A stretch of 64,000 nt of DNA from Nitzschia sp. pyKryTriq1 (lineage: Eukaryota > Bacillariophyta > Bacillariophyceae > Bacillariales > Bacillariaceae). The stretch is from assembly GCA_956465555.1 (NCBI GenBank), contig OY101116.1, positions 1,984,001 through 2,048,000 of the forward strand, in the 5' to 3' direction. The notes below the pieces were generated by a model. It searched no databases. It saw only the letters and a program-made list of their open reading frames with translations, and was not told where the DNA came from. Position numbers and translations under genes: made by a program. How positions within the stretch are numbered: position 1 is the first letter of the stretch; each line of letters begins with the position of its first letter. Below are positions 50,003-63,846 of the stretch, piece after piece.

Positions 50003-53000
50003 TTAGTCCTGAGGAATAGGACTGATCAAACGATTCTGGAAGCTCCCTTGGAGCAGGAAAGAAAAAGGCAATTTGTAGTGCTTGAACAGGGCGACAAGGT
50101 TCCACCAGATTGTAGAGCCAACTTGTTGTCCACTTCTCCATTCAGGGTCCAAAATGAGATCAATCCCCTTGTCACCATCAATGACATGGCTAAGCTCTTT
50201 TCGGAGCACCCACGGTGAAAGAAACTCACAATACAAAGGAGTACCAACGCCTTGAGAGCCTTCAAATGTTGGAGCACTGCAAGAAATGGAAAAGCGCGGA
50301 ACGAATCGGTGTTGACACTGCGGGCAGCGTGTTGTAACATCTTGGAATGCCCGAGGCCGCCAGCCGGCGATAACATTGTTTCTCGTCATCGAATTTGAAC
50401 ACTGAGGACAGGAATCTCCGTCGGTATCGATTTTGAGGTCTGGATACAGGAAGTCAAGAAGACTTTCACCCAACACAATTTGTTTCGAAAGACGATCGGT
50501 GAGAGGTCCTTCTCTATCAGCCATCATCTTAGTACGTCGGCGACGTCGTTTTCTACGCCTTGCTTTCATATTGCTGTTCAACTCGCGGGGGTAAAACCAG
50601 TCTAGGATTGCTGACCCTACCGGAATCGATCCCATGGCACCTATGGGAGAAGGCGTTGTCTCCGAGCCACTATTTGATACATGGTCGCTGGGGCAACTGT
50701 CAGCATCTGAGTCAGAGACCGGCGTGGTAGGCTGGGCATCCTTTCCAGTATCTCTGGTCATCGATTGTAAGTTCTTCTTCAGAAATGAGGAGTAGGCATC
50801 AGAACTGCGTTGACGTCGCACCGAACCGAATCGTTCGCTAGAAGTGTCGTCTCCTAGGTCATCGTCATTGTGCGCGAAAGCCGCCATGAAACAAGACAAC
50901 ACTTCCTGATCTGCCGCAAGACCGTCTCTTTTCATCATTTCAATCAGCTCCAACGCCCGCTTGGTGTCACCGCAGCGACCACATGCTTCCATCAAAGATT
51001 TGAAAACGTCAGGGTCGCTTAGCAGACCTCTCATTTCCATGTTTTTCAAAGTGTCGAATGCCAGATGAAGCTGAGCCACAGCAACAGCGCGGGCTTCCTC
51101 GTATTCCGCAAAGCCGTTGTCTTTGTCAAGAAGACTCGAGGTGGGCCCTTGCAAAAAAGTGGACGGAGAATTGGCCAAGCCCGATATCGCTTCGAATGCA
51201 ATTTGAGCTTGCGCATTGAATTCATCGATTTGACGCGGACATGGCGATGTGGTAACATAAACTAGCGCGTCATTGACGGCAGCAGCTCCGCTTGGGCACG
51301 CGTCACAGAGACCAAGATACGTATCAGACAGCGTATCAGGGTCTACAATCTCGAGTTCGACGCTCTCTGTTTGAGTCACGGGATCTGATCCAACGCCCTC
51401 TTGGACATCAGAATGATCCTTTCCAGCATCAAGGTCTGCCATGGCTTGCAATTCACGTTGCTTATGCTGAAAAGCCTGCCACTCTCGACCAATGACCGCA
51501 GAGTAGGCGTAAAAGAAAACTGTGAAAGCCATCCCCTCTGGGGATGTGTCGTAGTCACTGCCATAGAAGTCAAAAAGATGGTTTGACTCTACCGCCCCGG
51601 GTTCTTGTGTTGAACGCAAACGCGAGATCAGTGCGGCTTGTCGGTCGAATTCAGCCGTAATGATGGTGGGAATCGGTCGAGGCATACCGAACAACTGTTG
51701 GTTGAACTTTTCAGGCCACTGCTTGTAAATAAAGGGTGTCTTCACGTCAAGGTCTACTGCGCACGGCTCGACTGCAATAAACTTCGTGAGAACTTTATGC
51801 GCTTTGGCACTTTGCAAGAATGGTGTGTCGACCTTTCTCAGCTTGAGGCGGCTGCGATTAAGTTTGGCTTCGATGCTTTGATCGAAAAATATAATATCTG
51901 GCATCTCTGGACTGTACAGTCGCTTTGTGATGAAATCATCGAACTGTTGCGTCAGTGTTACATGAGAGAGATACGCCACGTACTCCGTCTTCTGGGATCC
52001 GATAAAACCGTCACGATCAAACGATCGTCGTTGGTTCCACTGCATCCTGCCGTCCGAATCAGGGCCGAGGGATGGCGCTGCGCCACCATCAGGATTGTCA
52101 AGAAATCGACGGTAATCTTTGAATAAAGCCACAAAGAATCGAAGAAAAGATTCTTGCACCAAGTCCCATTGGTTTTGTTCGGTTTCCACACCCAAATCAG
52201 TCTGGATATTCTCAGAATCAGGAGTGAACTGCAAATCAAATGCCTGGTCAAAAGTCACCAACTTTTCATTCCATCGCACCTCTCCTTTTCGCCGCGCCGC
52301 TTCCTTGAAGCTCCGAGTGTCTAGTCTATGGCTTCGGAATGCCTGGTACTCGCGTTCGAGGCCACGCGTTCTCCAAAATAGATGTCCAGCAATGTCTTCG
52401 AGGCTACTTCGAAGTTTCTTCCATTTCTTCCCGGGCAAAGGAGGAAGCTGTGGTGTTTTTGCACCAAACATGACATTGTTCCGATCAAGGTCTACAACAA
52501 TGGTATCCTCACTAACAAACTGTTGTACATGTAGCCAGTTGTCTCGTGTGACACCACATAGATAAGGTACTTGAAATCGAATCCAACAACAATATAATAT
52601 TGTGAGCGATACACGCCACTGATGACACATTCACACCGTCAGTCGGGCCGTAGTACCAACAGTACAAAAACAACTTACCAGGCGCATCCAACATGGGACA
52701 TAAAAATCGTGGTAGCAAGGGGACGTAAAGGTGACTCCATTTCATCGGGTATAGCAAGGAACAGAGGATCTCCGAGCACACTGTCAAGTTAGAATACTGG
52801 CTAGAAACCAAAAGAACTTTCTGTTCCATTGTCAAGCAGTACCAAAGATGCAAGATATTATCCAAGTCGAGACAGTCAAACAGCACCTGATATGGAAGGG
52901 CCACATACGCAATCGGTAGTTTTGCCGGAGGCGACCAAAATCGAATGACCGAATCGAGAATGTTGATTTGCACTTCAAAGGCCCCCGGAGGAGGCGCTGG

Positions 53001-54170
53001 AATCTCCATGCAAATATTCATGATATACCGCTCCAGTGGCACAGTCATGCAGTTGGTGCTAGTTGCTAATCGATAAATTTGCGCCAAGTACTCCCGAAAG
53101 GCTGTTATATAAGGCCACATCGAAAGTAAGCACAAGCACCGAGGAAGATACAAAGTAGATTTTTCGTTGTCCACTGTGATTTCAATGTCTCTCTCACCAG
53201 AATCACTATGAACCAAATGTTGTGCTTGCAATGGAGCATCGGAGGGTGGATCGTACTCTTCGTATACCGTGAGACAAGTACCATAAATCTTTCTTCCCTT
53301 ATCGTTGGTAAGAACAAAGTAGTGCACGCGTGGCATCAGATATTCTCTCGTCGGAAAGACGACATCGCCGACCGGATGACAAAACTGCGTCACCATCGGA
53401 TTGAGTGGGTTATCTTGATGATCACTGAGAGGGTATCGAGACGTGATTTTTGGTTGAAAATTGAACTCATCATAATTGTCGTCTTGTGGCATACGAATAT
53501 TACCATCATTCACGTTGTCTTCGTCCCGTTTCCAGGTGCCTCTTGGCTTGGGCGGCGGGAGGGTTTCTTCTCGAGTCTCGTCCAGTTGCGAAGACGACCC
53601 ATCTTGTGAAAACGACGCAGTGACGAGTCCATGTTCCGTGCTCGATTTTGCTTTCCGAAACACACTGCTAACTTTGCCGCTAAAACTTCGTTGGCGGCTT
53701 TCGTCTGGTTCCACGCTCGATGGAATAGGAGCCGACACGCCTCGTGGCATCTCTGGCCTGCTGCTGGCGTTGACCTTTGGACTTTGGGGTGCGGGCGATG
53801 ATGGACTCGAAGGCCCTCGTTGTTGTTGTTGTTGCTCTACTGACATCCGAGGGTGACAGCTGATAGTCACAAAATATTCCACGAGTCTCTGGATGGATGC
53901 TACATTTTGAAGGGCATCTTCCACCGAGACTTTTCGCCTCAACTTGCTAGGACTTGGGCATACTGTTGCTGTAGTAGCGGCAGTGTTGGTTGCAGTGTTG
54001 TTCATATTTGTTCGCTCGCTGTTACTTGATCCTCCGTCCTTGCTTCCATCCTTGCTTTCGGCTATCGATCGCTGGCTCAATGGGGCGGTGGTGGGTTCAG
54101 AGGGAGTCGGCAGTGTTGTGGGAGAAATTGCGGGTGTCATGGCTTGCTTGCTTGGTAGCTTTGCCTTCAT
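50003..54170 (-). CDS. DENN-domain protein, DENND4-like, with PPR-like segment and Cys-pair C-terminus
   Basis: Exons 54170-52679 and 52569-50003, 109-bp intron in phase 1; 1352 residues. About 260 disordered residues precede uDENN (VVFPTREYLMPRVHYFVLTN), cDENN (LYLPRCLCLLSMWPYITAFREYL, LPYQVLFDCLDLDNILHLWYCLTMEQKVLLVSS, and LDAPVPYLCGV across the splice) and dDENN (ESFLRFFVALFKDYRRFL). A PPR-like stretch follows (DVFKSLMEACGRCGDTKRALELIEMMKRDG). The end has two CPQC knuckles and a domain with LSPWVLRKEL and WWNLVALF. The same order (DENN, PPR, Cys pairs) is known for the DENND4/MYCBP group, which act as Rab GEFs. A membrane-traffic GEF is therefore likely; the Rab partner is unknown. Confidence 0.88.
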
Positions 54171-55639
54171 AAATTTTGTGAATTGGCAGTTTCGCGTTAC
54201 GTTTCGTTGACGAAGATGATACTGTAAGTAAATCGTGATGCTAGTAGAGTATGGTAGTTGATGAGAATGGAAGGAAGGTGGTTACAAGTAGAGGTGCGCC
54301 TCTCTATTTTGGAGCTTCGTATCGAGACAACAACTAACTGACAACTTTACTTTCCATACCAGTAGAAAAACGGAGTGAACAAACAGACGGTACCGGTAGT
54401 GTACCGGTACACGTGTATGTGGTTGAACGAACATCATGTGCATTGCAATCGGGGGGGGAGGCCCGCGTGGGACTGGTTCCGAGCGCGTTCGTGTAGTTCC
54501 GTTTTTCTTCATTCTTCCCGCCACGCGCCACTGGGGTTTTCTCGGCATTCCACATAAAGACTAAATTATCACTTTTATACGTCACTGAATATTCTATATT
54601 AAAACTCAACGGATCTTAATAAGTCATTCATTCACGAGTTTATTTTTGTCCATGACACACTTCGATCTGGCCCGGCCGGCGTGCTATTGCGAAAAAGTTC
54701 GCTCGAAAAGTGGCGCGGTCTGGACTTCTCCCGCCAAGGACAAGGTCTGAATGGAGGCAGGCGCCACCATTTTTTCGCTGCTTGCTTGTGGCAACAACGC
54801 CGTACTCGTACCTGGTACGTCAAACGTGCTGCGGACACAGACGGTAACCGACAAGCTGGTATGTGCTTGAGTGCCATATTGTTTTGTTGTCAGTTGTTTT
54901 GTGTTGAGGTAGGTGGATAAAGTTTCAATTTGTTCGTTTCGACCATGGTGATGGGTATTTTTGTCCCCGTGACGAAATAAATGAGCCGGGGAGGTCGTCT
55001 GCTCTTGGAGGGAGAATATTTAGTTTTTGGCATCGCCCATGGACGCCTCGAGATTTTCATGTACGCTGTTCGTGTGTATGAGAGACTCGCGCGACGTAAA
55101 TATTATTGGGGAACCCCCGACGACATCACATTTTCCGACTGCCACTCGAGTTTTTCGACCCTTCTCAATCAAATCCTAGCCTCTGGGTACGTTTGGGATG
55201 CCAAGGATCATTATTCTTCAATGCTTTTCACCCTGCCGGACCATCAAACAATCAAAAAATCACACTGCGTAGACAATCTACAGCGTTCTACGTGATAACA
55301 CGATCGATCTGCGCTCAATTTTGTCGTACTACTGCTGATAATCGCCATGGTTGTGCCCCTTTGTCACCCTACCCTCCATCCCAACCTCTCTCTGCTCCCC
55401 TCTACTCCTTGATCGTGCTCCGGAACCCTCATGTTGCAGTGTGTGTTTTGGATTTCACATGCTCCGGAGGCAGCTGCCTCCGTAGTCTAGTCTCAGCGCG
55501 TACTCGCACACTTCCATCACAAAAAATGATTCGTTCATTCATTTATTCTCACACATTCATTCTTCATTCTTGCCACTTTTAGGACTGAAGCCAGCGAGCA
55601 ACTTACCAACTACCACTACCAGTGCGTACAGTATCAACC
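54171..55639. other. intergenic between divergent DENN and CHD genes, 1.47 kb
   Basis: No gene seen. GTAC words at 54389-54410 and 54806-54816. Several 80-160 codon frames (for example 55106-55582) lack coding character. The last part, C/T-rich at 55370-55620, is probably the leader of the CHD gene. Confidence 0.5.
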
Positions 55640-58600
55640 ATGTCTGACGAAGGAGAAGGGGAAGAACGTCGCCGTTCGAGGCGGAGCAAGAAGAACGTCG
55701 ACTACTCCAGGGAACAAGACTTTAGCGACGGAGACATTTTCGAGGACAGCGACAAGGAGGATCCTACGCCCAAGAGAGGCCGCCCTCGAAAATCATCCTC
55801 CGGTATTCGCAAGTCTACGGGGAGTAGTCGACGTCGACAATCACTACAGCAAGACGCAGACGAGGACAATGATCATCATCTCGTGGGCGGAGGAGACGAC
55901 AATGACGACGACTTTCGGCCGAACAAACCCATCTACACAGAAAAGGGATACGATCCAATGCTCGAACCGATTCGAGAGAGGTTTCCGTTTTTGCCAGAGT
56001 TCGAACTGGACGGATCTCCTCGCATTGAACTCATTGTAGGTCGTCGTCCGGTGGACGAGAAGGGGGATGAAACCACCAAGGGCAGTGAAGAGGATTACGA
56101 CGAGAACCAAGACCCAGAAGACGAGGATGAGTCGGATCACGACGATGATGGCGACGACGGCGAAGGAGGCCGCAAATCCCGTCGTCGTGGCGGTGGCGCT
56201 CAGAAGAAGAAGAAAACGCCCTCCTCGCCCAAGAAAGAAAAGTCGGGAGTCATCGAGTATGAGTACCTCGTCAAGTACAAGAATCGCTCGTACATGCACC
56301 TCGAATGGAAGACAGGAGCAGATCTAGAGTCCATGAACAAATCGGCAAAGACTATGTATCGCCGCTTCGTCAAGAAACTTGCCCTGGGACTGGACGAAGA
56401 TCTAGAGAATCCGGAATTCGATGCATCCTTTGTCGTGCCTCAGAAAATTTGCGCGGAAAGAGAGCAAGAGCTTACTTTGGAACTCAGCGATAAGGAACTT
56501 CTCAAGTGGGAGAAGGAACGAGAGAAAGAGCTCGCCGAGGAAAGCAGCGACGAGGACGAAGACGAAGACAAAAAAGGAGAGAATGCGGAAGAAAGCCCAA
56601 CGGAACAGCCTGAGAAGCCCAAGGATGAAGCAGAGGGGCAGGATGACGAAAAGAAAGGTAAGTACTGGTACGAGTACTGAGTACTCGTGTCGAAAAAAGT
56701 ATCACTCGCGCTGACGATTATTATCCATGTCTCGTCCTATTATCTTCATACACAGAAGAACCAGAAGAGAACGACTGGGCAGAAGACATCGACTTCAGCG
56801 CTCTCACAGTACAACAACTGAAGGATATTCTTGCAAAAGAAGAATCTTACTACCCGGTTATTCCCGGCTGTGACAATCCTTACAGAGACGGGTTCGTCAC
56901 TGAACCCCCAAAGAAACCTCGGGCATCCTATCTTTTCTTCCAGTGCACTTTGCGATCGTACTTTGCCAAGAGGAACCCAAATGCCTCTCAGGGTGAGCTC
57001 ATGACGATTTTGGGTGATCATTGGAAGACAATGTCTGAAGAGCAACAGCTGCCTTTTCTAGAACTTGCAAAGGAAGAGGCCAAGCAATACGAAAAAGAAC
57101 GCCAGCTGTTGGAGAAGGCCCAACGACCCAACGAGATGTGGCAACCCATTCGTCGCTGTCTGATGGTACTTGATAGAATATCGGCAGATGGCTTTGCCAA
57201 TATTTTTCTGGAACCTGTCGATACCAATGACTTTCCTGACTACGAGGAATACATTGACACGCCCATGGATCTTGGCACTGTGCGTACCAAGCTGCATAAT
57301 AAGAAGTATCAGTCCCCGGAACAATTCGCTCGGGATGTTAGGAAGGTAAGATCTTTCGAATGATTCTCGTGTCGTGACTTTGGCTCCAATTACCTAACGA
57401 TTTATTATTTTTTCCTTTTTCGACCAGGTCTGGAACAATTGTAAGATTTACAACCGACACGGTTCCGCCATTTGGCACGTTGCTGACTATATGTCCAAGC
57501 AGTTCGAGCGTCTGTACCATGCTTGGGTACTAGAATATCGTGAACGATACCTCCGATGGGCGAATCCGAGGGCAAGGCCTTGGGAGCATACTTGCCGTCA
57601 ATGCGATGGAAAGTGCGGTACTCCGGACAAGGATTTGGTTCTTTGCGACCACTGCGACGCAATGTACGGATATAAGTGCCTGACCCCTTCGCTCAGAAAG
57701 CTTCCGACTGGCGTCTGGCACTGTCCTGACTGCAAGCCCAAATTGAAGTCTGTACGGGGCGTTCGAATGATGTCAGCTGTAGCAGAGCAAGCCGCGCGCA
57801 AACGAGCGGAACTCGGTGACACTCCAAAGAGAAAGGTGAAGCAAACGATGTATCTTGTCAAGTGGGCGGGGCTTGGTTACGAACATCTTACCTGGGAAAC
57901 CAAAAAAGATATTGGAAATCCAGCACTCATCGAAGCATTTCACAAATTGAACAACACTTATCCTGATGAACCCGACATGCCAGAAGAAGTTGTTGAGCAG
58001 ATTCTTGAAAAGGAAAACCACATCAACCTCGAGAATGCTGGAGGGTTATTCTGCGTACCTGATCTACGAACTCAGCTTTACGCTCAGACTCAAGCGTTCC
58101 AGTTCGCCAAGTTTGGCCTTGACATTCCCGAAAAGGTTGGCTGCGTATGCGGGCCAAAATCAGCAGTTCTTGTTTCTCCAGAGTGCTCCGATTCCGAAGC
58201 AAAGCGGGAAGTAGTTGAATGCCTCTCTGACATGGTCCAACGTGTCGCGCGAAAGGATGCACTTCCTCAGTTGATTCAAGTGAACAAGAATCTTCCACCG
58301 TTGCTATCGGGGGAGTACGATGCTGTTGTTCCAATCACTTCAAAAGGTTTGATGATGAATGTTGGCGAGATTCATGGCTCAGTTGCTTTCCTTGGCTACC
58401 GTACCTTTCCAGACGGAAGCAAGGGTCCAGCAGAGATTAATAAGCTGATCCGGAACGTAGGCGACAAAATCATAGCTGTTGATGGGACCAGCACAATCAA
58501 TAAGTCATTCAAAGAGGTGATTGGTCTCTTGCGGGAAAGTGGGAAGAACCAATTCGCAATTATGCGATTCCTTGAATGCCGCTACTCTGCTGTCAACGGC

Positions 58601-61600
58601 GAGTTGACCAGCGTGGGCAGTATGGGCAGATACGCCTACGAAGAGCTTCAGAAGAAGTTCAATCTAGATCGCAAGCGCTTGTTGGTGCAGCGCGCTGACA
58701 TGGCTCTTGACGAGACTCCAGTTTTGGAAGAGAAGGCCGAGGAATCTGATGCGAGTGCAGGGCCGGGCGACTCTGACGATGAATCTGACGGAAGTGCAGA
58801 ATTTCAACCAGATAGCGACGAAGAAGAGGTCAGCCAGAAAGAGGTGAAAGATCTCGGTAGCCTCGAACAAGTTGAGTCCGACAAGTCTCCACAAAAGCCT
58901 ACGGCTACCTCTGAGGAGAAATCTGCGGTAGGGGCTGATTCTTCTCAGGAACCCCAAATGGAAAGTGATGATCCGCTAGAAGAAGAAGACGCACTGGTCG
59001 TTCGTTCTGAGGCGACGCATTCCATGGCGCGTCGTCTCCTGGATATCGATGTCGGATACAGCAGTGATGAAGGTGGCGACGAAGACTGCGCATACTTCGT
59101 CGATGGAGTTGATGATACCTTTACGGCAATGGCGGACATTCCCAAGGAAATCGTCGAAGCTACGGCACCTGTCGAAGAGTCAAACGAAAACTCCAGGAAG
59201 AGCGAAAATGATGCTGAGAAGAAGACACTTCCTGTCAAACGAAACGAATTCAGCACTCTTGGCGATCGCGCAAAATTGGTTGCCTCAGTTGTGTTGACTG
59301 CGCAGCCTCCAGAGATCGATAAGTTTGATAACTTCCCCGAGCCCTCGTCGAAAGCCATTGCCGAAAAGGAGGCAAAAGCTGCAATGGCCTCAGCTGAAGA
59401 TGGTTCATCCCCCGGAAAGCCGATAAAACGATCCACGGTCAAAGTGGAGCAGATCGACGTCGCAACAAACCAAATTATTCACGTGTGGGCAAGTGCACAG
59501 GCTGCTGCAGCCACTCTTCAGATCCCGTTGAACGAAATCCGGCAGGTTCTGCAAGGCGAATACGATGAAGAACTGGGTGACGAGGTGGGTGGATTTCGTT
59601 GGAGCTTCGCAGCTGCCGGGGCCACAGTTACGGCAGGCATGAGCGATTCGAAAAAAGGAAGCAAGAAAGGAAAGGAAGCATGGTTGGAGTTTCGTGATCG
59701 ACTTTATGATCCCAGTGAGCCACATCCATACAAAAACAACAACAGATTGCGGGACTATCAGGTTGAGGGCGTAAACTGGCTTGCAAGTACTTACTACAGG
59801 AAGCACGGTTGCATCCTGGCAGACGGTAAGTCCCACGGATCGGGAATTGTTTGTCCTTATTTTTCTTTGCCTAACATACATATTTTTTATATTGCACAGA
59901 AATGGGTTTGGGGAAAACAGTCCAGATTGTTTGCTATTTGGAGCATTTGTATAGAGTCGAGAAGATCCAACGCCCCTTTCTAGTTGTCGTGCCACTGTCG
60001 ACCGTCGAACACTGGCGGCGCGAATTTGAGGGCTGGACCGATATGGTTTGCTGTGTGTATCACGACAGGCAGAGAGTGTGGCGCGACGTCTTGCGAGAGT
60101 ATGAATGGTACTACGAGGACCGCCCCCACAATTCCGACTATTTGAAGTTCGACGTTCTCGTCACTACCTACGACACCCTCATCGGTGATTTTGATGTGAT
60201 CAGCAGCATCCCTTTCCGTGTCACCGTTGTCGACGAAGCACACCGTCTTCGCAATCAGAAGGGGAAGCTGCTCGAATGCATGAGAGAGATCAGTGCCAAG
60301 GGAACTCTTCAATACGGTTTCCAAAGTCGTGTCCTGATGTCTGGTACGCCTCTTCAGAACGATCTCATCGAGCTTTGGACGCTCTTGAATTTTATTGAGC
60401 CCTTCAAATTTCCTGATTTGGACCAATTCATGGTATTGTTTGGTAATATGGCTAATCGAGAACAAGTGGAATCGCTTCAGCAGCAAATCTCGCCGTTCAT
60501 GCTTCGCCGCGTGAAAGAAGATGTTGCAAAAGACATCCCGAACAAGGAAGAAACCGTTATCGATGTCGAATTGACAAGCATTCAAAAACAATACTACCGC
60601 GCAATTTTTGAGCACAACCACGGATTTTTGAACATGGGTTCGACAAGGGCGACTGCGCCGAAGCTCATGAACATTCAAATGGAACTTCGCAAGGTTTGCA
60701 ACCACCCATGTCTACTCGAAGGAGTTGAGCATCGAGAGCAGGACCGCCAATTCAAGGAATTCCTTGAAGCCGGTGCTTTCCATGGGAAGACCCCTGAAGA
60801 GCAGCAACACATGTTGAATGAGCATCTCTACATTCAAACGAGTGGGAAAATGGTTCTCATGGATAAATTGCTTCCTAAGTTGCGCCAAGAAGGGCACAAA
60901 GTCCTGGTCTTTAGTCAGATGGTACGAATGCTGGATCTAATTTCTGAGTACTGTGAATTCCGGAATTTCCCATACGAAAGATTGGACGGCCGCGTCCGTG
61001 GCACGGATCGCCAGAAATCGATTGATCGCTTTGAACGTGATCCAAACAGTTTTCTTTTCCTCCTTTCGACGAGGGCTGGAGGTGTTGGGATCAACTTGAC
61101 TGCTGCCGACATCTGTATCATCTTTGATAGTGATTGGAATCCACAGAATGACGTTCAGGCGCAGGCTCGCTGCCATCGAATTGGACAGACGAAGGATGTG
61201 CGCATTTATCGTCTCGTTACCAGTAGGTCATTCGAACAAGAGATGTTCGATCGAGCCAGCAAAAAGCTAGGATTGGAGCAAGCCGTTCTCGGCACATTTG
61301 GCCAGGACGATGACGATGACAAGCCTACAAATAAGGAAATGGAACAGCTCCTCAAGCGAGGTGCCTATGCACTGATTGAGGATGAAAATGATGAAATCAC
61401 CAAGGCCTTTTGCGCAGATGATATTGATAGCATTTTGGCTAAGCGCACTCGTACGCGAGTAGTTGAAGGGACCAAGACTGCCTCCTGGTTGAATAAACAA
61501 GGAATGGTTGTGAGCAAGTCAAAATTCACAAGTGACTCAAAGAGCGCTGGCTTGGACATGGACGATCCTCTCTTCTGGCAGAAAGTTATGCCTGATTTCG

Positions 61601-63846
61601 TCACACCTTCGATCATGCTTCAAAAACTGCAAGATCTCGAAGATGAAATCATGGGCACGACCACCAAGAAGAAGCGTGGACGAGGTCGAGGCCGATGGAA
61701 GAAAAAGGAAGATGAAGAAGAAAAGCCCGAAGAAGCTCTTACCGATGCTCCCGATGGAAGTGGTGTGACCCCGGAAGGCGAGGGGGAGGAAGCTGACGAG
61801 AAGAAGGAGGACGATGCTGCACCCGAATCCAATGCAAACGGAGATGATGAAAACGCCGACGACAAGGAGGACGAGGATAACGACGAGAACAATTCTGACG
61901 AGGACAAAGAAGAGGAAGCCTTTCAACTCACAAGAACATACGTTCGGAAGGTTGCTAAGTTTTTATCTGACCTCAAGGCAATGATGGAGGGTGTTTTCGA
62001 CGAGGACGAAGACGACGCTTTGCCGAATGAGGAAAAGCAGACTTGCCAAAAGCTCTTACTCACTATTTCCGTGAAGGAGAAGATGTTCAGTGACGAGCAA
62101 CGTCACATGGCGCGTTCGATGCTGAAGCGGCTAGAAGGCAACCGCCGCCGACGTTGTCGTACGTCCGATCAGAACAGTAACGTACCCTCGTTCAGTCCCG
62201 GGAGACGTGGGCGACCAGATTTCATTCGCGAGGAACTTCGTATCGTCGGCAAGAAGAAGAAACAGCGAAGAAAGCGAGGTGAAGTCGACGACGAGAAGAA
62301 GCGTCGACGACGCGGTTCAGACGATTCTGATATCGAGATAGGCGACGATGGCTACAAGGTGCATTCGGATGATGAGGCCGACTGGTCCGACATCGGCGAA
62401 GATCTCTACGAAGGGAAGAAACGTGCAACGATCACCAGCAAAGAGGCTCGTCGTCGTCGGCAATGGGCTGCCGACGACGACGCTGCCACCGCTGCAGGAC
62501 GACCCTGGCCGTCCTTCCCAAGAACTCATGTTTCTCTGGTTCTTGGAACTCTTCTCGACGCAGTCATTAAACACGACGAGTTGAAGGGGGGTGTTTTCTC
62601 AGAGCCAGTTTCCAAGGAAGAGTTCCCCGAGTACTATGAACAAATTTCTCAACCAATGGACTATGACACGATGAGGAAAAAACTGGAAAACGAAGAATAT
62701 CGATCTGCTCAAGCCATGCAGAAGGACTTCGTTTTGGTCATGCAGAACTGTCTCAAATTCAATGCTCCCGACTCTGAGATTGTACAAGAAGCCCGTCAAC
62801 AGGCGCTAATGAGACCTAATTTGCTTCGTGATGCAGCGATCAAGCACGGCTTGTTCCTGGCAGAGGATGGATCTGTTTTTGAGATTCTTGATGACGAGAA
62901 GAAGAAGTCAAAGAAGAACGAAGATGGAACGCCGAAGAAGCGCCGTAGGAGAAAATCGGATGGCGGCGATGACATGGAGACGACGACTAAGAAGAAACGC
63001 AAGAGGAAGAGTGTTGACTCCTCCGAAATCGAAGTCGAGGAGGAAGAAGACGATGTACCCCTTGCCTCGATGAAGATGAAGAAACCAAGGATCAAGATCA
63101 GTCTTGCGGATACTGGTGGAAAGAAGAAGAAGGGGCGGCGAAGTCGAGCTGACGAAGACGAGGAAGCAGCTGAAGAACTTTCGGACGTCGAGATCGATTC
63201 AACTCCTATTCCGAGAAAGAAACGGGGCCGACCTTTTGGAAGCAAGAACAAATCAACCGAAAAGAAGACCAGAAAGAGACGGGGCAAAGCTGAAAGCGAA
63301 GAGGAGGAAGATGACGAACCTGAGCCAGAAGAAGAAGAGGAGGAGGAAGAAGAAGAAGATCAAAGTTATCTCTATTTGGATGCCGGTCTTTGGAAAGGAG
63401 AACGCGAAGCCCTTGATGGTAGCTTCGAGGCTGCCAAGGCTCATTTCAGGCAGCGTGGGAAATGGGTTCTGCCCTCTGAGTTGAAGCCGAGCAAGTTCAA
63501 GGATGTTGCTCTTGGAACTCTTAACAAGATGAGCAAATTTGATCGTTACGCTGTTTTCGCTGAGCCCGTGAGCGAGAGCGAAGCTCCAGGATATTTCGAT
63601 GTCGTGAAGGAGCCAATTGACATGTCGACCATGCGTGAGAAGGTCGTCAAAGGCGTTTATGGGGAGGGCTCTGTAGCTGCCGCCAAGTTTTATCGCGATT
63701 TTGGCCTCATGTTCGAGAACTGCGCCCTGTACAACGATGATGAAGGTGAAGTGACCGAAGAGGCCTCGCGCTTGTTCGCGTTGGTGCCGGAAACATATGC
63801 TGCACAATGCGCTCTTGCCTTAAAGAAGCAGAAGAAATCAGGTTAG
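55640..63846 (+). CDS. CHD/SNF2 chromatin remodeler with chromo, HMG, bromo, PHD, PDZ and NUMOD-like modules
   Basis: Exons 55640-56657, 56756-57345, 57428-59825 and 59900-63846; introns 98, 82 and 74 bp; 2650 residues. In order (approximate residues): chromodomain 203-250 (YEYLVKYKNRSYMHLEW); HMG box 388-455 (PKKPRASYLFFQ...LGDHWKTMSEEQ); bromodomain 464-570; PHD 589-638 (HTCRQCDGKCG...HCPDCK); chromodomain 673-713; PDZ-like 834-919; NUMOD-like 1206-1267; SNF2 ATPase 1308-1605 with DEMGLGKT (split by intron 3) and DEAH; helicase C 1652-1772 with QARCHRIGQT; bromodomain 2208-2298; AT-hook-like KRGRPFGSKNK ~2442; bromodomain 2535-2622. It should slide or evict nucleosomes, reading methyl-Lys (chromo, PHD) and acetyl-Lys (bromo). 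Intron 1 carries GTAC words. Confidence 0.95.
56662..56689. repeat. GTAC cluster inside CHD intron 1
   Basis: Four GTAC words in under 30 bp directly after the GTAAGT donor. With the CK2 beta case it shows GTAC arrays inside introns. Confidence 0.75.

Follow-up and report, generated by a model that had tools for sequence, protein, structure and literature searches.

Among the chromatin remodelers of stramenopiles, one entry in a 2014 survey bears directly on the gene described here. The survey takes in oomycetes along with four diatoms, one brown alga and one ciliate, 18 species in all, and its Table 2 has a row for an oomycete 'Chromodomain-containing protein (D)', with PITG_03401 as reference (PMC4030286). 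The order given in that row is [Chromo], Bromodomain, PHD, Chromo, [PDZ], SNF2, Helicase_C, and then a set of PHD and PHD-like domains, brackets marking those that are absent or non-significant in some species (PMC4030286).

We have analysed a window of 64,000 nt from the genome of the diatom Nitzschia sp. pyKryTriq1 (contig OY101116.1, positions 1,984,001 to 2,048,000). A gene near its end has the same core order, chromo-bromo-PHD-chromo-PDZ-SNF2-Helicase_C, with a PDZ module that is sub-threshold here and bracketed there. It differs in possessing an HMG box, a NUMOD-like module and C-terminal bromodomains, none of which appears in the row for protein (D); where the oomycete protein has its PHD/PHD-like set, after the ATPase, the diatom gene has two bromodomains instead. 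By module order, compared with that table row alone, the gene is probably the diatom version of the stramenopile remodeler listed for oomycetes. It is therefore better regarded as a more elaborate relative of something already described than as a new kind. The preliminary description of this DNA took the combination of domains to be unseen. Since the core is in print for oomycetes, in the row of Table 2 (PMC4030286), that order was already known in stramenopiles, and what lies outside the row is the HMG box, the NUMOD-like module and the two bromodomains of the C-terminus. The literature we searched, which lay mostly outside the subscription journals, yielded no publication recognisably on the diatom gene.

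Gene structure

The gene and its introns are positioned in the window as follows.

55640..63846, + strand: whole gene, start to stop codon; 2650 aa when spliced
56658..56755, + strand: intron 1; 98 nt, GT-AG, phase 1
57346..57427, + strand: intron 2; 82 nt, GT-AG, phase 0, within bromodomain 1
59826..59899, + strand: intron 3; 74 nt, GT-AG, phase 1, within the DEMGLGKT motif of the ATPase

Joined, the exons (55640-56657, 56756-57345, 57428-59825 and 59900-63846) form 7953 nt that encode 2650 aa and a single, terminal stop. All three introns have the form GTAAG...AG. Reading through intron 1 or intron 2 brings an in-frame stop in each; intron 3 is open in the joining frame, and its 74 nt shift the frame if kept. 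The codon-usage score of the annotated frame is the highest, and positive, in all six coding stretches tested, and scores are negative in every frame of the three introns and of one upstream stretch. Exon 3 runs uninterrupted from bromodomain 1 into the ATPase; exon 4 takes up the rest of the motor and continues without a break through the last two bromodomains. Because these exons are unbroken, and introns 2 and 3 lie inside domains, the parts from bromodomain 1 to bromodomain 3 do not belong to separate genes, unless the domains themselves are broken.

Exon 1 is tied to the remainder by intron 1 only, and its chromodomain is weak on its own in Pfam. Two adjacent genes might have been wrongly fused at this point, one encoding a chromodomain protein (exon 1) and the other an HMG-bromo-PHD-chromo-SNF2-bromo protein (exons 2-4). 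We consider this very unlikely. No ATG is available in exon 2 until halfway through the HMG box, so intron 1 is required, too, and its donor and acceptor are both canonical. Further, the chromodomain of exon 1 is of the CHD chromo1 type, and the oomycete protein (D), going by its row, likewise starts with a chromodomain in some species (PMC4030286). Judged by its sequence, then, the + strand from 55640 to 63846 is one spliced gene of four exons and three introns. The preliminary description had proposed a single spliced gene of CHD type with much this succession of modules, and frame, splice sites and profiles essentially bear it out.

Modules upstream of the motor

Seven modules precede the ATPase.

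56234..56338, + strand: chromodomain 1, CHD chromo1 type (aa 199-233); Pfam 17.5 bits, cut-off 25.1
56908..57105, + strand: HMG box (aa 391-456); Pfam HMG_box 50.6 bits, cut-off 25.4
57157..57487, + strand: bromodomain 1 (aa 474-556), split by intron 2; Pfam 86.7 bits spliced; Asn545
57593..57733, + strand: PHD finger (aa 592-638); Gly617 in place of the His zinc ligand
57830..57946, + strand: chromodomain 2 core (aa 671-709); Pfam 39.3 bits, cut-off 25.1
58424..58546, + strand: PDZ-like module (aa 869-909 matched); Pfam sub-threshold
59444..59602, + strand: NUMOD1-like module (aa 1209-1261); own-genome repeat profile

Two chromodomains lie N-terminal to the motor but, unlike those of other CHDs, they are not adjacent: an HMG-bromo-PHD cassette is placed between them. 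We compared them with those of three CHDs, two paralogues from the same genome and human CHD7, the last as a provisional sequence rather than a database copy ('provisional CHD7'). Chromodomain 1 matches the three chromo1 sequences at z 11.4-14.9 and the three chromo2 sequences at z 1.0-1.8, and by this comparison it is clearly of the CHD chromo1 type. Chromodomain 2, whose Pfam match begins at profile position 12, is closer to chromo2 in two of the three comparisons; the exception is the paralogue labelled C, to whose chromo1 it is closer than to its chromo2 (z 12.7 vs 6.3). A candidate for its strand beta1 ahead of the cassette (aa 259-273) was rejected, the five-sequence motif being matched as well by 21 of 300 local shuffles; the stretch is the second-best place for that motif in the whole protein and ranks seventh if L129, a CHD described below, is left out.

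The two tryptophans of the human CHD1 motif KWKGW, which have a cage role, are replaced in chromodomain 1 by Tyr and Arg (KYKNR), and methyl-lysine reading by this domain appears doubtful. The PHD finger scores 27.8 bits in Pfam (cut-off 24) on the spliced piece and 23.7 on a longer exon-3 piece, and retains seven of the eight Cys4-His-Cys3 zinc ligands, Gly617 replacing the His. The methyl-lysine reading originally ascribed to the protein was, in view of both departures, overstated.

The PDZ-like module reaches 19.0 bits with Pfam PDZ_6 (cut-off 27, E 0.0012), and the same residues match the NCBIfam Tsp profile at E 0.0014, far below its cut-off; otherwise NCBIfam gave only bacterial SNF2 helicases, all likewise far below their cut-offs. 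Nine PDZ chains are among the 60 matches listed by a PDB search (E 0.05-0.34), and a profile built from 18 PDZ stretches of the same genome gives 16.7 bits on the module, against 6.6 for the best of 1000 shuffles. For the NUMOD1-like module, Pfam returned no NUMOD match, and a profile of 13 own-genome repeats gives 18.3 bits (best shuffle, 5.6); 10 of these 13 come from one protein with a Pfam NUMOD1 match of 133 bits. The two parts are probable peptide- and DNA-contacting modules. AlphaFold2, run without relatives on aa 722-960 (window 57983-58699), gave no usable fold (mean pLDDT 33.6, pTM 0.20).

The motor, its tail and its kin

The motor and the features that follow it are listed here, together with short basic motifs, one of which lies near the N-terminus.

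55775..55786, + strand: AT-hook-like RGRP core 1; motif only
59756..60708, + strand: SNF2 ATPase lobe 1, split by intron 3; Pfam 200 bits, cut-off 24.9
60853..61188, + strand: helicase C lobe, ending with RCHRIGQ; Pfam Helicase_C 87 bits, cut-off 23.5
61561..61584, + strand: post-ATPase block DDPLFWQK; sequence comparison
61675..61689, + strand: RGRGR basic stretch; motif only
62206..62217, + strand: AT-hook-like RGRP core 2; motif only
62548..62796, + strand: bromodomain 2; Pfam, alignment; Asn2290 present
63223..63234, + strand: AT-hook-like RGRP core 3; motif only
63520..63765, + strand: bromodomain 3; Pfam 67.4 bits alone, alignment; Asn2614 present

Pfam, PDB matches and trees all give a CHD-type SNF2/helicase motor, and the DEMGLGKT, DEAH and SGTPLQN motifs of the SNF2 lobe are intact. 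By blastp, the ATPase is 48.7% identical to provisional CHD7, 44-45% to the two paralogues, and 40-42% to yeast Chd1, human CHD4 and human CHD1. It forms a clade with the paralogues and provisional CHD7 (support 100/99). When provisional CHD7 is omitted, it groups with the paralogues and L129, an independent pond-derived CHD with an HTH_CHD6-9 match just below cut-off (25.7 bits vs 27), in a clade that has 100/100 support and excludes CHD1 and CHD4. The type III placement draws on provisional CHD7 and L129, since in the PDB sequence search CHD1 is the best ATPase match and no CHD6-9 ATPase is among the matches listed. With that basis, the protein is a CHD remodeler whose ATPase is, by sequence comparison, of the type III (CHD6-9/Kismet-like) kind.

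Besides the ATPase and the chromo1 type, it has in common with type III CHDs (CHD6-9, Kismet, Dictyostelium ChdC) a DDPxFWxK block, here DDPLFWQK, in the paralogues DDPDFWKK and EDPDFWKK, in L129 DDPNFWEK and in provisional CHD7 DDPNFWQK. It departs from them in the cassette that separates its chromodomains, in the large PDZ/NUMOD block ahead of the ATPase and in its two added bromodomains. BRK domains are a feature of animal CHD6-9/Kismet members. A Pfam search of the C-terminal exon (E up to 1, then 10) found no SANT, SLIDE, HTH_CHD6-9 or BRK domain after the ATPase, so the usual type III DNA-binding half is missing or unrecognisable; nor did Pfam find a PHD finger C-terminal to the motor.

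The paralogues, at about C6:2452921-2460398 and C10:336874-343260, share the ATPase clade of the window gene, but their chromodomains are tandem, and the seven ORFs scanned contain no HMG, bromo or PHD match. The C6 copy has a weak CHD1-type HTH match (19.2 bits, cut-off 27). To call the window gene chimeric, as was done at the outset, overstates the case: with its chromo1 type, a second chromodomain of chromo2 type in two of three comparisons, and the cassette between them, it more resembles a type III-like CHD with insertions. The same genome has eight silicon-transporter matches over cut-off, which mark it as a diatom's.

HMG-like, PHD, chromo and SNF2 domains occur together in Mi-2/CHD3-5 proteins such as CHD4 as well, and over the HMG region the HMG-like CHDNT profile of Pfam scores a weak 15 bits (cut-off 27). 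The gene might accordingly be a reshuffled Mi-2, its HMG box corresponding to a CHDNT domain and its PHD finger to the Mi-2 pair. We think this very unlikely, because the ATPase is nearer to provisional CHD7 (48.7%) than to CHD4 (40.2%) and sits in the 100/100 clade that excludes CHD4. Module order differs as well: HMG box and PHD finger lie between the chromodomains, not ahead of them, so that neither the Mi-2 arrangement of PHD fingers before tandem chromodomains nor grouping with CHD4 is found. Mi-2/CHD3-5 proteins are not known to have a bromodomain. SWI/SNF ATPases of the Brahma type do, C-terminal to the SNF2 motor as here, and the diatom's own copy (L007) has a bromodomain downstream; the ATPase of this copy falls outside the CHD clade, and the Brahma type is not known to have chromodomains.

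The acetyl-lysine asparagine (YN/FN) is kept in all three bromodomains (Asn545, Asn2290 and Asn2614). Bromodomains 2 and 3 together reach 139 bits in Pfam (cut-off 21.7). On whether these two arose by a recent internal duplication, the comparisons point both ways: the best match of bromodomain 2 lies in a different gene, C7:846438 (40%, 59.3 bits; bromodomain 3, 36%, 47.8 bits), and bromodomain 3 is nearest, by a narrow margin, to bromodomain 2 (47.7 vs 45.1 bits). Of the domains initially named by eye, profiles confirm the HMG box, the three bromodomains, chromodomain 2, SNF2/helicase and, when spliced, the PHD finger. Chromodomain 1 and the PDZ module stay below cut-off and the NUMOD-like module has no Pfam match, yet each of the three outscores shuffled controls.

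With N-terminal, middle and C-terminal parts as tblastn queries (E up to 1e-3) against the collected loci, matches outside the diatom's own genome came only from L049 (an HMG match, 40% over 52 aa) and from L129 (in the post-ATPase block). Viral contigs scanned with exon 3 gave 33 pattern matches and no relatives. ATPase-alignment scans covered the best 80 of at least 207 relatives (viral) and the best 80 of at least 519 (genomes); none of these 160 loci, from viral and prokaryotic collections that are little informative here, has the whole cassette.

Proposed action and significance

It seems likely that this is a diatom CHD remodeler with a type III ATPase, kin to the oomycete protein, that moves nucleosomes at acetylated chromatin. 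We infer kinship, nucleosome sliding, acetyl-lysine docking and brake release, as follows. The three bromodomains, asparagines intact, would dock the protein by binding histone tails that carry acetyl groups; linker DNA would be gripped by the HMG box and the AT-hook-like basic stretches; and the SNF2 motor would translocate DNA, most likely sliding or evicting nucleosomes where chromatin is acetylated and probably active. Nucleosome sliding is an activity of CHD7 and CHD8 (PMC5512084), and in Chd1 the paired chromodomains occupy the cleft between the two lobes of the ATPase and hold ATP hydrolysis in check (PMC3781322). Because the cassette sits between the two chromodomains, this chromodomain brake may be lifted when the cassette binds acetylated tails or bent DNA.

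The cassette could instead be a tether, its HMG, bromo, PHD and PDZ modules recruiting the enzyme or holding partners and leaving the brake untouched, with a motor that acts like any CHD; only at the brake-release step do the two readings part. The modules are surrounded by long acidic linkers (as many as 35 D/E in 100 residues), and both paralogues have a longer stretch from chromo1 to the chromo2 core than provisional CHD7, which suggests a permissive loop. Against this, the core order is common to oomycetes, going by the row in PMC4030286, which suggests that the position of the cassette is constrained. We lean, slightly, away from the tether.

The gene might represent a stramenopile-wide class of CHD with HMG-bromo-PHD between braking chromodomains and histone acetylation directly switching the motor, a larger proposition that we hold to be rather unlikely. 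There are at least three copies of the type III-like CHD ATPase in this diatom, which suggests that this type of ATPase arose before it became linked with multicellular development. Acetyl-lysine reading elsewhere often comes from separate subunits. If the larger proposition is true, diatoms and oomycetes would combine such reading and a CHD motor on a single polypeptide, at the place where the motor is restrained, and in them one could test directly whether a remodeler is switched on by its reader domains or merely recruited.

A four-exon gene and its surroundings

The gene placed at 55640-63846 by the preliminary description is correctly delimited: four exons join into a single reading frame of 2650 residues that ends in the only stop.

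Exons of the CHD gene (joined reading frame)
55640-56657, plus strand, exon 1
56756-57345, plus strand, exon 2
57428-59825, plus strand, exon 3
59900-63846, plus strand, exon 4

The introns are short (98, 82 and 74 nt), and all three begin with GTAAG and end with AG. Introns 1 and 2 contain in-frame stops; intron 3 leaves the joining frame open, but, if retained, its 74 nt would put the rest of the ATPase out of frame. Stop-to-stop frames span 861 codons around exon 3 and 1323 codons around exon 4. Because intron 2 splits bromodomain 1 and intron 3 splits the DEMGLGKT motif, the domain structure itself demands these two joins. Upstream of the middle of the HMG box, exon 2 offers no ATG. When a codon-usage score was trained on the gene's ATPase, the annotated frame came out top and positive in all six other coding stretches tested, and every frame was negative in the three introns and in one upstream stretch.

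The window is C2:1984001-2048000 of a 40.65 Mb genome in 20 contigs. Eight silicon-transporter matches over cut-off, seven of them at 873 to 885 bits, mark it as the genome of a diatom; among 14 control genomes one matched, below cut-off. Next to the CHD gene lies an ORF of 589 aa (52512-54281, minus strand), a putative DENN-domain protein judged by eye from its motif.

Domains, certain and less certain

Pfam profiles bear out much of the domain list first drawn up by eye: the HMG box, three bromodomains, PHD, chromodomain 2, SNF2 and Helicase_C all score over cut-off, the PHD at 27.8 bits on the spliced piece and just under cut-off, at 23.7, on the exon-3 piece. Chromodomain 1 (17.5 bits against 25.1) and the PDZ-like part (PDZ_6, 19.0 against 27) fall below, and NUMOD models find no match in the protein. 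Two further CHDs of this diatom, both with tandem chromodomains and type III-like (CHD6-9/Kismet-like) ATPases, serve for comparison.

CHD paralogues (B and C in the comparisons below)
About C6:2452921-2460398, plus strand
About C10:336874-343260, minus strand

Chromodomain 1 aligns with the first chromodomains of both paralogues and of human CHD7 at z 14.9, 14.5 and 11.4, and with their second chromodomains at 1.8, 1.0 and 1.5. For the PDZ-like part, PDZ chains aligned to it make up nine of the 60 PDB rows listed (60 of 93; E 0.05-0.34), and an NCBIfam tail-specific protease model covers the same residues (E 0.0014). A profile built from 18 PDZ stretches of the diatom's own genome gives 16.7 bits here, versus 6.6 for the best of 1000 shuffles. 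Repeats resembling the NUMOD-like module were found by pattern in two long ORFs of the same genome, ten in L045 and three in L044. A profile of these 13 repeats scores 18.3 bits on the module, and none of 1000 shuffles exceeds 5.6.

ORFs with NUMOD-like repeats
L045:3-3278 (genome C1:166002-169277), plus strand, Pfam NUMOD1 133 bits, I-HmuI NUMOD-like 95 bits
L044:2161-6132 (genome C6:1968660-1972631), plus strand, Pfam I-HmuI NUMOD-like 31.5 bits

NUMOD1 is mostly found in homing endonucleases; the Pfam lists for these two ORFs, to E of 1, include no endonuclease family.

Judged against its paralogues, the protein looks like a tandem-chromodomain CHD that has been opened at two sites. HMG box, bromodomain 1 and PHD lie between chromodomains 1 and 2, where the linkers of the paralogues are much shorter; the second site, from chromodomain 2 to the motor, holds the PDZ-like and NUMOD-like parts. 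One comparison mars this tidy picture: in paralogue C, the first chromodomain is a better match for chromodomain 2 than the second one is (z 12.7 versus 6.3). Against paralogue B (12.8 versus 10.5) and CHD7 (17.4 versus 4.4) it favours chromodomain 2. The C-terminal end carries two bromodomains. Unlike the usual CHD, which has a SANT/SLIDE-type region behind the motor, this one yields no such region there by Pfam search. Between motor and bromodomain 2 runs a stretch that looks rich in helices (61915-62193, aa 2008-2100; TYVRKVAKFLSDLKAMM...), in which no Pfam match rises above cut-off; it could be a diverged DNA-binding region that replaces SANT/SLIDE.

Kinship of the ATPase

The ATPase is 48.7% identical to that of human CHD7, 44.8% and 44.4% to those of the paralogues, and 41.6%, 41.1% and 40.2% to those of yeast Chd1, human CHD1 and human CHD4. 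The CHD7 sequence was entered by hand, not taken from a database record; CHD4, obtained likewise, agreed with its PDB row, which speaks for the CHD7 sequence without proving it. In the ATPase tree the gene, its two paralogues and CHD7 form a clade (support 100/99). A second tree omits CHD7 and adds L129, an independent eukaryote-like CHD spliced by eye; here gene, paralogues and L129 again group together (100/100), apart from CHD1 and CHD4. Supports inside the type III-like clade are only 53-90, and its internal branching is not fixed. The post-ATPase block DDPxFWxK is common to the whole clade, one paralogue having Glu for the first Asp. None of the seven own SNF2 loci placed (the three CHDs, L006, L007, L012 and L017, from 45 SNF2 matches) groups with CHD1 or Mi-2.

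CHD-like and SNF2 loci outside this genome
L129:9422-14322, contig JAIYDP010000426.1, type III-like CHD, apparently intron-bearing, filed under a Verrucomicrobiaceae MAG
L049:257-3640, 3.6 kb contig in a viral collection, ATPase preceded by an HMG-like stretch (40% in 52 aa against the window's HMG box)

L129 has one chromodomain and FYRN over Pfam cut-offs, Myb-like (20.9 versus 24.4 bits) and HTH_CHD6-9 (25.7 versus 27) just under, and a first chromodomain visible by eye; its contig is probably eukaryotic contamination of a bacterial bin. The L049 ATPase groups with the diatom's own L006 (97/97), and this contig, too, is perhaps eukaryotic.

Taken as a whole, a diatom CHD remodeler with a type III-like ATPase that would move nucleosomes at acetylated chromatin is the best explanation, and a rather likely one. 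Our confidence is slightly lowered because the PDB search itself does not point to type III: CHD1 is the best match of the ATPase, and no CHD6-9 motor is among the rows listed.

Reading, moving and precedent

The motor motifs are whole (DEMGLGKT, DEAH, SGTPLQN, RCHRIGQ), and each of the three bromodomains keeps the acetyl-lysine asparagine. Of the eight zinc ligands of a PHD, seven are present, and Gly617 (57668-57670) stands at the expected His position; either the finger is degenerate or it uses a different ligand, His611 being nearby. Two tryptophans of human CHD1 have a cage role; chromodomain 1 has Tyr and Arg at these sites. Since the bromodomain asparagines are kept, and the PHD ligand and the tryptophans are not, the residues favour acetyl-lysine reading, a well-supported possibility, over methyl-lysine reading, for which support is poor.

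CHD7 and CHD8 slide nucleosomes, and CHD6 disrupts them without sliding, as PMC5512084 describes. Most likely, the diatom motor would move nucleosomes while docked through its three bromodomains on acetylated chromatin, as the conserved residues suggest, with the HMG box and basic stretches holding it on DNA. In Chd1, according to PMC3781322, the space between the ATPase lobes is taken by the chromodomains, which hold back ATP hydrolysis and contribute to its coupling to sliding. Because the cassette of HMG box, bromodomain 1 and PHD is linked to both chromodomains, its reading might, hypothetically, also release such a brake.

This architecture is not unprecedented, because its core order already stands in Table 2 of PMC4030286, a survey of 70 gene-expression regulators that drew on the genomes of 18 species, among them oomycetes, four diatoms and a brown alga. 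The preliminary claim that CHD proteins of animals, plants and fungi do not combine this set of modules may nevertheless hold. The row for 'Chromodomain-containing protein (D)' reads [Chromo], Bromodomain, PHD, Chromo, [PDZ], SNF2 N-terminal, Helicase C-terminal, PHD, [PHD], PHD-like, PHD, with brackets for domains that some species lack or show only below significance. The paper also lists a SLIDE protein of oomycetes that has an HMG box. As far as this row goes, the preliminary question of an order shared with oomycetes is answered for the core; the HMG box, NUMOD-like module and bromodomain tail of the diatom gene do not appear in it. The gene is well defined and unusually module-rich, and is probably a more elaborate version of a protein type on record for stramenopiles.
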